Shown here in pieces: positions 28,220 to 32,081 of a stretch of 64,000 bases of DNA. The stretch spans positions 1 through 64,000 of the forward strand of contig NZ_CAKKNS010000004.1 of NCBI RefSeq assembly GCF_918814575.1, written 5' to 3'. Source of the DNA: Periweissella fabaria. GTDB taxonomy: Bacteria; Bacillota; Bacilli; Lactobacillales; Lactobacillaceae. The notes under the pieces were generated by a model that had not been told where the DNA came from, did no database searches, and worked only from the letters and a program-made list of their open reading frames with translations. The position numbers and the translations under genes were made by a program. The first letter of the stretch is position 1. Every line of letters begins with the position of its first letter.

Positions 28220-29017
28220 CTATTTTAAGCGATAAGCAACTTCCACCTTCAAGGTGTATGGATAAGCAGTTTCAATAAAACTACTACGTGTCATCGTTTT
28301 TCCTAAACCACCATTTACAATAATTGAAGCTAAGAAAACATCAGAATTTTTCAAGGCTGTTGCGACATCCGCTAAGCCAACCCGTGAAATTTCACCTAGG
28401 CGTACTGCTTGCATCTCATTAATTCCACCATAAATAACCAAATGAGTTCCTTCCATAACTAATTTAGCAAATGGGACTGTACTTCCTGGATGGTTAGCAT
28501 AAATGGGCTTATCGTGGTCCAAAACTAATTGTTGGCGTAATTCGCGATCAGTCATTTTTTGATAATCTTGACTGATTAACCCTAAATTAAGCATTTGTTG
28601 GGCAACCGCTTGAATATTCGCCTCTTCATCACTATTACTCTTAACTGCAGTTGGTAAAACTTGTTGTTCTCGGTAAACCCCATTATTAGGTCCTACCACT
28701 TGTTGGGTATTTTGCTTAGCATCAGCTGCTTGCGTATTTCCAACAACTTTTTCAAAGTGTGGTGAAATATCAAAGTGGGCCTTTTTTTCGGTAAAATAAT
28801 ACATAAAATTTAAATAAATAACATACATCAAACCAATAAAGGCCGCAACTAATCCAAAGCCTCGCAAGTACCGTTGCGCCGTAATAAAACTAATCCCAAT
28901 ATATAAAATATACCAAGAACCTCCAAAACCAAGGATGGTATATAAACGGCCTTTAAACTTAGTATTAACATTGAAAAAACCAACATATTGATTTAATAAA
29001 CCTAAAATCGTTAGCAT
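28220..29017 (-). CDS. Conserved lactobacillar membrane protein of unknown function
   Basis: A 265-residue protein. The first 95 residues contain two to three membrane helices (LYTILGFGGSWYILYIGISF and FGLVAAFIGLMYVIYLNFMY). A linker rich in Asn/Gln (about 96-130) follows, then a soluble domain (140-265) with GTHLVIYGGINEMQAVRLGE and a beta-rich end. I believe it belongs to the DUF6681 type of lactobacillar proteins, but I cannot confirm the number. It follows a Ser-rich exported protein by 18 bp, with AGGAAGGAAA before its start, so the two are probably co-transcribed. No function is assigned. Confidence 0.75.
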   Translation of the reverse strand: MLTILGLLNQYVGFFNVNTKFKGRLYTILGFGGSWYILYIGISFITAQRYLRGFGLVAAFIGLMYVIYLNFMYYFTEKKAHFDISPHFEKVVGNTQAADAKQNTQQVVGPNNGVYREQQVLPTAVKSNSDEEANIQAVAQQMLNLGLISQDYQKMTDRELRQQLVLDHDKPIYANHPGSTVPFAKLVMEGTHLVIYGGINEMQAVRLGEISRVGLADVATALKNSDVFLASIIVNGGLGKTMTRSSFIETAYPYTLKVEVAYRLK

Positions 29018-29610: not shown

Positions 29611-30177
29611 TTAAATATTTTCTAATTTTAGGGATTGCATCAAATCTTTAATTTGTGTTTTTGCAGCTGTTAAATCATCATTTAAAATCACATGCACCGG
29701 ATGATTATTGAGCTGCGGGGTTACTAAATCACGCTGAAAATCATCACTCGCTAGCCGTTGTTTTATTCTTTCAGGTTGATCACCCCGTTGCACTAAACGT
29801 TGCGCCAAAATCGTACTATTTGAAACGGTTACATAGACAATAATTGTTTGTGCTCCTAACTGATCAGCATATGTTTGGGCACCTTTAGTGTCTAATACAA
29901 TTACCGCATCATTCCCAGTATGCCACACTAACTCTAAGGCCTCCCGTGAGGATCCATAACGATGACCAGCATATTCCACTTGTTCCAAATAATGTTTTTG
30001 CGCAAAAGTTGTTTCATTTTCAAAATAATAATCTTGCCCATCAATTTCACCTTTACGGGGAGACCGTGTTGTATGGGTTATTACTTTTTTCAAATTAAAT
30101 TCCTGTTGGAGGTAGTGGGCAATCGTTGTTTTGCCTGCACCAGTTGGTCCGGTAATCACAAAAATCTTTCGTTGCAT
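29611..30177 (-). CDS. Guanylate kinase-like protein
   Basis: A 188-residue P-loop kinase: GPTGAGKTT (9-17), the GMP-binding stretch THTTRSPRKGEIDGQDYYF (35-53) and VEYAGHRYGSSREALE (67-82), as in guanylate kinases. The lid and C-terminus are shorter and less conserved than in the essential gmk. Many lactic acid bacteria carry such a second, divergent guanylate kinase, so this may not be the housekeeping copy, which would lie near rpoZ and is not in the window. AGGAAA lies 8 nt before the start. Confidence 0.8.
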   Translation of the reverse strand: MQRKIFVITGPTGAGKTTIAHYLQQEFNLKKVITHTTRSPRKGEIDGQDYYFENETTFAQKHYLEQVEYAGHRYGSSREALELVWHTGNDAVIVLDTKGAQTYADQLGAQTIIVYVTVSNSTILAQRLVQRGDQPERIKQRLASDDFQRDLVTPQLNNHPVHVILNDDLTAAKTQIKDLMQSLKLENI

Positions 30178-30363: not shown

Positions 30364-31770
30364 TTATTTATCATTCAAATGAGACCGACGCATCCCGTAA
30401 CCAAGGTAGATTAGAATTCCAATCACAAACCAAATCCCCCCAGCAATCAAGGTTGTCTTTTGTAACGTTGTCATTAAGTATAGTGAAACTAGTGCTGAGG
30501 CAATTGGTAAAACTGGGACTAATGGCATTTTGTAGCCATCATTTTTAATTGTCTTATTTTTCCGTAATAAGATAACACCCAATGATACAAAGATAAATGC
30601 CAGTAATGTTCCCATATTAACTAGTTCGGCCAATTGACCAAGGGGAACTAAGCCAGCCATTATTGAAACAATAATAACAACTACGATTAAGGCTTTCTTT
30701 GGTAACCCATTTTTTTCATCAATTTCACCTAAAAATGGTGGTAATAAACGATCACGTCCCATGGCGTATAATAATCGTGAACCAGCAAAGACCATCGCCA
30801 TTAAACTAGTAAACATTCCCGCTAATGCCCCAATTGTTAAGAGGTATGCAATTCCGCGTTGACCAACTCGTTCTAGAGCAAATGCAACAGGATCACTAAC
30901 ATTTAAGTGTGTGTAGTGGACCATTCCAGTTAAGACAAACCCAACTAACGCGTAGAGAATTGCTGCAACAATCAATGTCCCAATAATCCCGATTGGCATG
31001 TTACGTTTAACATTTTTGGTTTCAGCCGCGGATGATGACACCGCATCAAAACCTAAGAAAGCAAAGAATACACTCGCTGCTCCAGCAAAAACACCTTGAA
31101 TTCCAAAAGCACCATGCGCACGTGGTGGAATAATTGGTGAGTAATTATCAGCCTTAATGTAGAAAAAGCCAACGACAATAAATAAAACAATAATTGCAAT
31201 TTTAAGTAACACCATTAAACGTTGGACAGCACTTGATGTTTGCTTTCCTTTAGTCAACAACCAGCCGACAAAAATTAAAATTAAAATTGCCACCACATTT
31301 AAGTATGAACCATGACTTGGATCAAATGAACCCGCAATAGCGGTTGGAATTTGAAAAAGTGGTTTTACAAAGTAACTAAAGTAAGCCGACCATCCAGTGG
31401 CAATAGCGGCGACCGCTAATAAGTATTCTAAAATCAGTGCCCAACCAAGGACCCAACCAATAACCTCACCATATAATAAATTACCGTAAGCGTAGGCTGA
31501 ACCGGCAACTGGCATTGCTGAAGCTAACTCAGCGTAAGCCATAGCAGCTAAAGCACAAATAATAGCAGCAATAATAAAACTAAATACAATTGCCGGACCA
31601 GCCGTGGTTGCGGCAACCGTTCCTGGTAAAATAAAAATCCCGGTACCGATAACGGCCCCAATTCCCATACTTAATAAATCTTTAGCACCTAAAACTTTCG
31701 TCAAGTGCATGTCTTCGTTCAAGTAATTTTCTAAACTGTCTTTCTTGAACATTCTCTGTATAATACTCAT
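30364..31770 (-). CDS. APC-family amino acid permease (CAT/YfnA-like)
   Basis: A 468-residue permease with twelve predicted helices. The APC start motif MGIGAVIGTGIFILPG (about 35-50) and the family segments PVAGSAYAYG and FFAFLGFDAVSSSAAE are present; this layout belongs to the cationic amino acid transporter branch. Start 31770 is chosen because AGGAG lies 8 nt before it, over an upstream ATG at 31806 that lies in the T run of the leader terminator. The 276-nt leader contains a short aromatic-rich peptide and an intrinsic terminator, which implies amino-acid-dependent attenuation. The substrate could therefore be aromatic rather than cationic amino acids. Confidence 0.85.
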   Translation of the reverse strand: MSIIQRMFKKDSLENYLNEDMHLTKVLGAKDLLSMGIGAVIGTGIFILPGTVAATTAGPAIVFSFIIAAIICALAAMAYAELASAMPVAGSAYAYGNLLYGEVIGWVLGWALILEYLLAVAAIATGWSAYFSYFVKPLFQIPTAIAGSFDPSHGSYLNVVAILILIFVGWLLTKGKQTSSAVQRLMVLLKIAIIVLFIVVGFFYIKADNYSPIIPPRAHGAFGIQGVFAGAASVFFAFLGFDAVSSSAAETKNVKRNMPIGIIGTLIVAAILYALVGFVLTGMVHYTHLNVSDPVAFALERVGQRGIAYLLTIGALAGMFTSLMAMVFAGSRLLYAMGRDRLLPPFLGEIDEKNGLPKKALIVVVIIVSIMAGLVPLGQLAELVNMGTLLAFIFVSLGVILLRKNKTIKNDGYKMPLVPVLPIASALVSLYLMTTLQKTTLIAGGIWFVIGILIYLGYGMRRSHLNDK

Positions 31771-31804
31771 ACTCGATACTCCTATCAAAGTTAAATTTTC
31801 TGAC

Positions 31805-31853
31805 AAAAAAAGGACGTCCGCAAGCTAGATAAATACTAAGCATACAGGCGTCC
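31805..31853 (-). terminator. Leader terminator (attenuator) before the APC permease
   Basis: A hairpin between GGACGCCTGTATGC and GCTTGCGGACGTCC (several G-U pairs, two mismatches) followed by T7 on the minus strand, 34 nt before the permease start. It sits inside the transcribed leader of its own gene. A small hairpin, CAAATT/AATTTG (31851-31868), precedes it and could be part of a competing fold. Confidence 0.8.
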
Positions 31854-31863
31854 AAATTAATTA

Positions 31864-31964
31864 CAATTTGACTAGGTTTGATAAGAGGTTTCATCAGGCC
31901 ATTCCGGATACTTAGTAACAAGTAAACCCGCATGGCAAAATGATCTTGGCATCCGGATTTACAT
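31864..31964 (-). promoter_or_regulatory. Structured leader RNA between leader peptide and terminator
   Basis: The transcript contains GTAAATCC/GGGTTTAC enclosing an imperfect ATGCCAAGAT/ATTTTGCCAT hairpin. Two copies of the self-complementary TCCGGA(T) can pair with each other instead, giving mutually exclusive folds. I could not match it to a T-box (no TGGNACCGCG), a lysine riboswitch or another class I can recall. Unknown or leader-peptide-coupled attenuation RNA. Confidence 0.5.
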
Positions 31965-32018
31965 CTCGAAATAACCAAAATAAAAGTTTGATTTAACTGT
32001 ATTTACATTTTTAATCAT
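31959..32018 (-). CDS. Aromatic-rich leader peptide
   Basis: A 19-codon open reading frame in the 5' leader of the APC permease, starting about 28 nt after the predicted transcription start and preceded by AAGGAAG at 9 nt. It ends NFYFGYFEM-stop; five of six consecutive codons (TTT TAT TTT GGT TAT TTC) encode Phe or Tyr. The peptide is too short to have an enzymatic role. It has the hallmarks of a ribosome-stalling sensor for Phe/Tyr starvation, followed by structured RNA and a terminator. The open reading frame, its ribosome-binding site, promoter and terminator are seen; the sensing is inferred. Confidence 0.6.
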   Translation of the reverse strand: MIKNVNTVKSNFYFGYFEM

Positions 32019-32052
32019 ACTCTTAAACTTCCTTCTCTATTAGATGTTTTTA

Positions 32053-32081
32053 ACTATACACATTTCATTCTAAGAAAGCAA
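32053..32081 (-). promoter_or_regulatory. Promoter of the APC permease leader
   Basis: TTGCTT (complement at 32076-32081), 17 bp, TATAGT (complement at 32053-32058); predicted start of transcription near 32046. Confidence 0.75.

Follow-up and report, generated by a model that had tools for sequence, protein, structure and literature searches.

A putative phenylalanine/tyrosine leader-peptide attenuator upstream of an amino-acid permease gene in Periweissella fabaria and other Lactobacillaceae

In Periweissella fabaria and in further Lactobacillaceae, a gene for an amino-acid permease is preceded by a short phenylalanine-rich leader open reading frame (ORF), by RNA segments with alternative pairings and by an intrinsic terminator. 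We propose, with a probability of about 0.8, that this leader is a ribosome-mediated transcription attenuator sensing charged tRNA-Phe and probably charged tRNA-Tyr. The computation shows the leader ORF itself, like leaders in related genomes, a set of alternative pairings and, in one genus here called g19, covariation of these pairings. A leader-peptide attenuator had been suggested in an earlier note on this DNA and is supported by conserved FYF-type codons, covarying stems and the lack of an Rfam family at threshold. Of the two residues, Phe is common to the leaders across genera, and Tyr is accessory. The leader offers a testable substrate, Phe and perhaps Tyr, for a widespread permease which is annotated only by its similarity to BcaP.

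Leader region and permease gene

The window, i.e. the whole stretch of 64,000 nucleotides that was analysed, carries the following elements, given in the order of transcription.

32053..32081, minus strand: promoter-like site, TTGCTT at 32081-32076 (3/6), 17 nt, TATAGT at 32058-32053 (5/6); read directly, 8/12 to consensus
32030..32034, minus strand: Shine-Dalgarno (SD) sequence AAGGA of the leader ORF, 11 nt upstream of it; an SD also precedes the leader ORFs of relatives
31959..32018, minus strand: leader ORF of 19 codons plus stop, MIKNVNTVKSNFYFGYFEM; core F-x-F-x-[FY]-F common to other Periweissella and genus g19
31922..31962, minus strand: hairpin 1:2 (protector), from the stop codon onwards, with arms at 31962-31954 and 31930-31922; fold modelled for a ribosome placed on the first aromatic codon
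31898..31936, minus strand: hairpin 2:3, predicted to sequester the antiterminator strand; fold modelled for a ribosome placed on the stop codon
31904..31917, minus strand: segment 3, antiterminator 5' strand (UACUAAGUAU-C-CGG), pairing with 31843-31834 when the model has a stalled ribosome and a truncated transcript
31834..31843, minus strand: segment 4, antiterminator 3' strand within the terminator (AUGCUUAGUA); modelled fold
31805..31853, minus strand: intrinsic terminator, hairpin 31853-31812 (GGACG...CGUCC) and T7 at 31811-31805
30364..31770, minus strand: the putatively regulated gene, a CAT/BcaP-like amino-acid permease of 468 aa with its ATG at 31770; Pfam AA_permease_2, 192 bits

The SD, the 19-codon Phe/Tyr-rich frame, the alternative pairings around UCCGGA and the terminator with T7 had all been described in the earlier note and were found on the minus strand. 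Its near-consensus promoter was overstated, given the matches listed above, and this site is absent from the list of a generic promoter scan. The terminator, the stem of which is long and interrupted, is likewise not listed by a generic terminator scan. From 32018 to 31959 the leader ORF reads ATG ATT AAA AAT GTA AAT ACA GTT AAA TCA AAC TTT TAT TTT GGT TAT TTC GAG ATG TAA, and its regulatory codons are probably Phe12, Tyr13 and Phe14. UCCGGAU abuts the stop codon, and a second UCCGGA lies about 45 nt further on. The fold of the leader RNA is better than that of 200/200 shuffles (z -4.1), and the topology of hairpin 1:2 is the same in the leaders L004 and L005.

Among Periweissella species, the block from promoter to terminator is better conserved than the DNA further upstream. 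In P. ghanensis and P. fabalis, the only close relatives obtained from the scan of named genomes, identity is 89-90% from the -35 element to the ATG and 52-71% in the DNA upstream. The codons for NFYFGYFEM and stop are identical in three Periweissella species and, with no variation of aromatic codons there, provide no gauge of codon-level selection.

The permease is a member of the APC superfamily (PF13520). Its nearest NCBIfam model is BcaP (NF053761) with 537 bits, below the curated cut-off of 690, so that the protein does not qualify as BcaP and the branched-chain label cannot be transferred to it. Judged by its leader, it may import aromatic amino acids. This fits with the distribution of prephenate dehydratase (PF00800), which is absent from 13/14 leader-bearing genomes and present in 14/14 control genomes; as a comparison of leader-bearing with control genomes, this is a fit rather than a discriminating test. 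Since the enzyme is missing, leader-bearing bacteria should need external Phe.

P. ghanensis has a tandem second permease copy with 69% identity to the window protein and without a leader ORF (L041, G114:C17:35739-37139). Further along the window lie a DUF6681 protein (28220-29017; PF20386, 290 bits) and, near it, a guanylate-kinase-like protein (29611-30177) scoring below the guanylate kinase cut-off.

Leaders before orthologous permeases

We examined the regions upstream of 91 permease orthologues of the family, and then those of further g19 members. A Phe or aromatic leader ORF with SD and terminator precedes orthologous permeases in g1, g19, g20, g23, g24, g25, g26 and g32, thus in seven Lactobacillaceae genera beyond Periweissella. 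FYF-type codons, which the earlier note had proposed to follow by alignment, are conserved in relatives, as seen in the leader peptides:

Periweissella: NFYFGYFEM, NFSFWYFTV, EFRFWFFVK
g19: QAFFYFTFFG (then stop), AFSYFTYFG, SFKGFTFFG
g26: IYYFAYFWRLAD
g24: YAFAFSLFG (then stop)
g32: KFFSFC
g23: NNNFFFNLN
g20: GFFFFN, RFFFFFN
g25: FSFFFK

The residue common across genera is Phe; Tyr is found mainly in Periweissella, g19 and g26. Upstream regions with at least three Phe per seven codons number 22/91, where dinucleotide shuffles give 2.6; for four or more Phe the figures are 7/91 and 0.33. The 91 regions contain near-copies within genera, and the leaders nonetheless cover eight genera. Downstream of the leader ORF, a terminator lies at the equivalent position in all 24 leaders examined. 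The sequences following the stop codon differ almost wholly between genera, whereas the Phe-coding ORF and its SD are maintained. In g19, where 16 of the 20 species having the gene carry the leader (including L218 and L219, read by eye), Thr, Phe and Gly codons show synonymous changes with the peptide maintained, and Phe and Tyr are exchanged at one position.

Outside the leader-bearing genera, most of the permease orthologues that were sampled have no leader, and no convincing Phe leader was found among order-level orthologues (L238-L265, many of them outside the family); one of these, L247, has the frame MVFFYIFRDFF. RFFFKF ORFs in genus g14 (L115, L123, L125) were rejected, as they have no clear SD or terminator arrangement. 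In the permease tree, leaders fall into at least three clades, and their gains and losses exceed what a single origin would need.

Some loci show peculiarities of their own. In g20 (G138, G115; L200-L203), two permease paralogues of one genome belong to different tree clades, and only one of them has a leader, of the FFFFF type. The L219 leader in g19 has TAA as its second codon (ATG TAA ...) and an in-frame ATG 12 nt downstream, from which MVTVESFKGFTFFG and a stop codon are read; the early TAA possibly reflects decay or reinitiation. In g25 (L159, L122, L126), the terminator of the Phe leader is separated from the permease gene by long 5' regions, which contain repeated-looking segments (AGTGCG...AAGCCTGG and similar).

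Alternative folds, proposed switch and rival readings

The short ORF with SD and codon cluster and the intrinsic terminator between it and the permease gene are the parts expected of an attenuator. For the switch, we modelled two states. In one, the ribosome sits on the first aromatic codon and the transcript ends after the 5' half of the terminator; in the other, the ribosome has reached the stop codon and the transcript is complete. In three Periweissella leaders that differ greatly in sequence, the first state gave hairpin 1:2 together with the antiterminator helix 3:4, which uses the terminator's own strand, and the second gave hairpin 2:3 together with the terminator. The window leader, for which the earlier note had suggested folding both states, is thus switched between antiterminator and terminator folds by ribosome position in these models. 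Its energy difference between terminator and antiterminator shifts by -6.7 kcal/mol, compared with -0.2 +/- 2.4 in shuffles (p 0.02). When the ribosome was moved from its stalling site at the first aromatic codon onto the stop codon, the balance shifted towards the terminator by -4.3 to -9.0 kcal/mol in 12/17 leaders. Over 12 lineages this gives a Fisher p of 1.8e-5, the terminator halves being set by hand and the p-values approximate. The shift was not seen in g20, g25 and g32, nor in the g19 leaders L215 and L216; these may have another arrangement or may have been wrongly modelled. The energy-difference test was used instead of equilibrium base-pair probabilities of the antiterminator, which did not discriminate for Periweissella, where the averaged positions apparently took in a local helix. 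Full-length folds prefer the terminator at both ribosome positions, so that the switch must be kinetic.

Covariation was assessed in g19, the genus with most sequences, and the covarying stems that the earlier note had looked to were found there. In ten distinct leaders, the helices 1:2, 2:3, 3:4 and 4:5 are paired at 96-100% and are stepwise mutually exclusive. A C-to-T change in segment 2 is accompanied by G-to-A in segment 3, C-to-T in segment 4 and G-to-A in segment 5, the pairing of segment 1 being kept via G-U. In the OFF helices, 20 cells are changed on both sides against 7.4 in shuffles (0/500), in the ON helices 5 against 1.8 (2/500), and slid controls gave far lower values. The changes which bear on the alternative helices are one pair in 3:4, two in 2:3 and three in the terminator; they mostly separate two subclades and may represent one or two evolutionary events. 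A mutually exclusive antiterminator which depends on ribosome position is thus indicated by modelling and covariation, modelling having given none in g20, g25 and g32.

From the sequence we infer that the leader is translated and that its ribosome stalls, with the following consequences. The ribosome would translate NFYFGYF while RNA polymerase transcribes the leader. With Phe- or Tyr-tRNA scarce, it would stall at codons 12-14, hairpin 1:2 would form from the stop codon, and segment 3, left free, would pair with segment 4 of the coming terminator, so that the permease gene is transcribed. With Phe and Tyr plentiful, the ribosome would reach the stop codon and cover segment 1; segment 2 would then pair with segment 3, segment 4 would go to its terminator partner, and transcription would end about 35 nt short of the permease gene. 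Within this five-segment logic, protector 1:2 would serve on stalling to free the antiterminator strand.

The TnaC peptide senses Trp in the ribosome tunnel. In a similar manner, the peptide F-x-F-x-[FYL]-F-, often ending in G and stop, might arrest the ribosome by binding a small molecule, free Phe or some other, within the tunnel, abundant ligand holding the ribosome at the stop codon over segment 1 and thus giving hairpin 2:3 and the terminator. The models agree that the OFF state would likewise result from a ribosome arrested at the stop codon, and the spacing of the Phe codons and the flanking Thr/Ser and Gly are conserved between g19 and g24 despite synonymous changes. Such a motif could, however, be kept by common descent, and sister clades have plain mid-peptide Phe runs (FFFFFNQPGYQPVS, NNNFFFNLN) without the terminal motif, as codon counting predicts; we consider nascent-peptide arrest unlikely.

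The strong structure with alternative pairings would also suit a leader that acts as a riboswitch or binds a protein, the small ORF being incidental, and g24 leaders give sub-threshold matches to the trpB motif, a proposed riboswitch. We regard this as very improbable: there is no conserved aptamer-like core, the Phe ORF and SD persist where the sequence behind them diverges between genera, and the trpB motif is itself accompanied by a Trp-codon uORF. TTT and TTC codons are frequent in AT-rich DNA and many orthologues have no leader, from which one might suspect a chance ORF in an AT-rich leader, followed by the ordinary terminator of an upstream transcript. The gene upstream of the window leader is divergent, hence no upstream transcript requires the terminator, and the excess over shuffles (22 regions for 2.6 expected), the same position in eight genera and the covarying switch helices make a chance ORF scarcely credible. 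Attenuation by codon-dependent stalling is therefore the reading that we prefer.

Comparison with known systems

Rfam searches at gathering and at relaxed thresholds gave no family at the window locus; a match to a known riboswitch family, named in the earlier note as evidence against the leader-peptide reading, did not appear. There is no match to the trpB motif (RF04312; cut-off 59 bits) at the locus, and the g24 leaders score 30-37 bits, under this gathering cut-off. In its description (Narunsky 2024, PMC11109978), the trpB motif ranks as a strong orphan candidate for a riboswitch, with a classic attenuator left as an alternative. It resembles the window leader in having a hairpin whose right arm is able to pair with a following terminator, in the uORF before it and in its place ahead of TrpX-like transporter genes and trpB, and differs in its relation to Trp rather than Phe/Tyr.

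As a side result, a Trp-containing uORF precedes the motif at all 58 Lactobacillales loci examined (L055-L112). In 55/58 it has an SD and its end lies immediately in front of the motif, where shuffles lead one to expect 0.8 such cases; the other three have the same WQSR-type frame with a weaker SD. Examples are WQSWRR, WQNWRR and RWQSR, each followed by stop. Judged by eye, the genes downstream mostly encode TrpX-like substrate-binding proteins or TrpB. The codons TGG CAA AGC are nearly invariant and AGCCGG can pair with the CCGGCU of the motif, so that RNA pairing is probably an added constraint. The ribosome-position test gave a mixed result here (median shift -2.5 kcal/mol; 8/17 at p <=0.07). 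A trpB-like match in the window's own genome (C8:59561) was taken as false, lying beside an apparent tRNA end and terminator and having no Trp uORF. Judging by these uORFs, the trpB motif is probably a Trp leader-peptide attenuator; if so, there is one reason fewer to seek its ligand. It is less likely that the conserved peptide F-x-F-x-[FYL]-F-(G)-stop senses free Phe as a nascent chain, holding the ribosome at the stop codon and so keeping the transporter off; in that case it would form, with the WQxW uORFs of the trpB motif, a Lactobacillales family of leader peptides that sense aromatic amino acids.

The Phe attenuators of enterobacteria of the pheL and pheST type have a Phe-codon-rich leader peptide, alternative hairpins and an intrinsic terminator, and are controlled by tRNA-Phe charging. 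The window leader has the same parts and, as we propose, the same signal. It differs in that it would control a permease instead of Phe biosynthesis or PheRS, belongs to a different phylum, mixes Phe with Tyr and protects the antiterminator strand by hairpin 1:2; a sequence relation is not apparent. The earlier note had called such an attenuator unusual for Firmicutes, and it is uncommon, although amino-acid leader-peptide attenuation is already documented there for the his genes of bacilli (PMC2965389) and ilv of Staphylococcus aureus (PMC5794164). Those leaders use His and Leu codons, precede biosynthesis or synthetase genes and are unrelated in sequence. The attenuation mechanism itself is thus not new, but the open-access papers that were searched contained no description of a Phe/Tyr leader from Lactobacillaceae. 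T-boxes (RF00230) are an alternative solution to the same task, sensing tRNA charging directly, whereas the window leader would do so via the ribosome. The whole genome has 19 T-box matches, 6 of them over the cut-off, and there is none in the window, nor at eight leader loci up to E 5. The leader suggests that classical Phe/Tyr attenuation is used in a group which normally relies on T-boxes.
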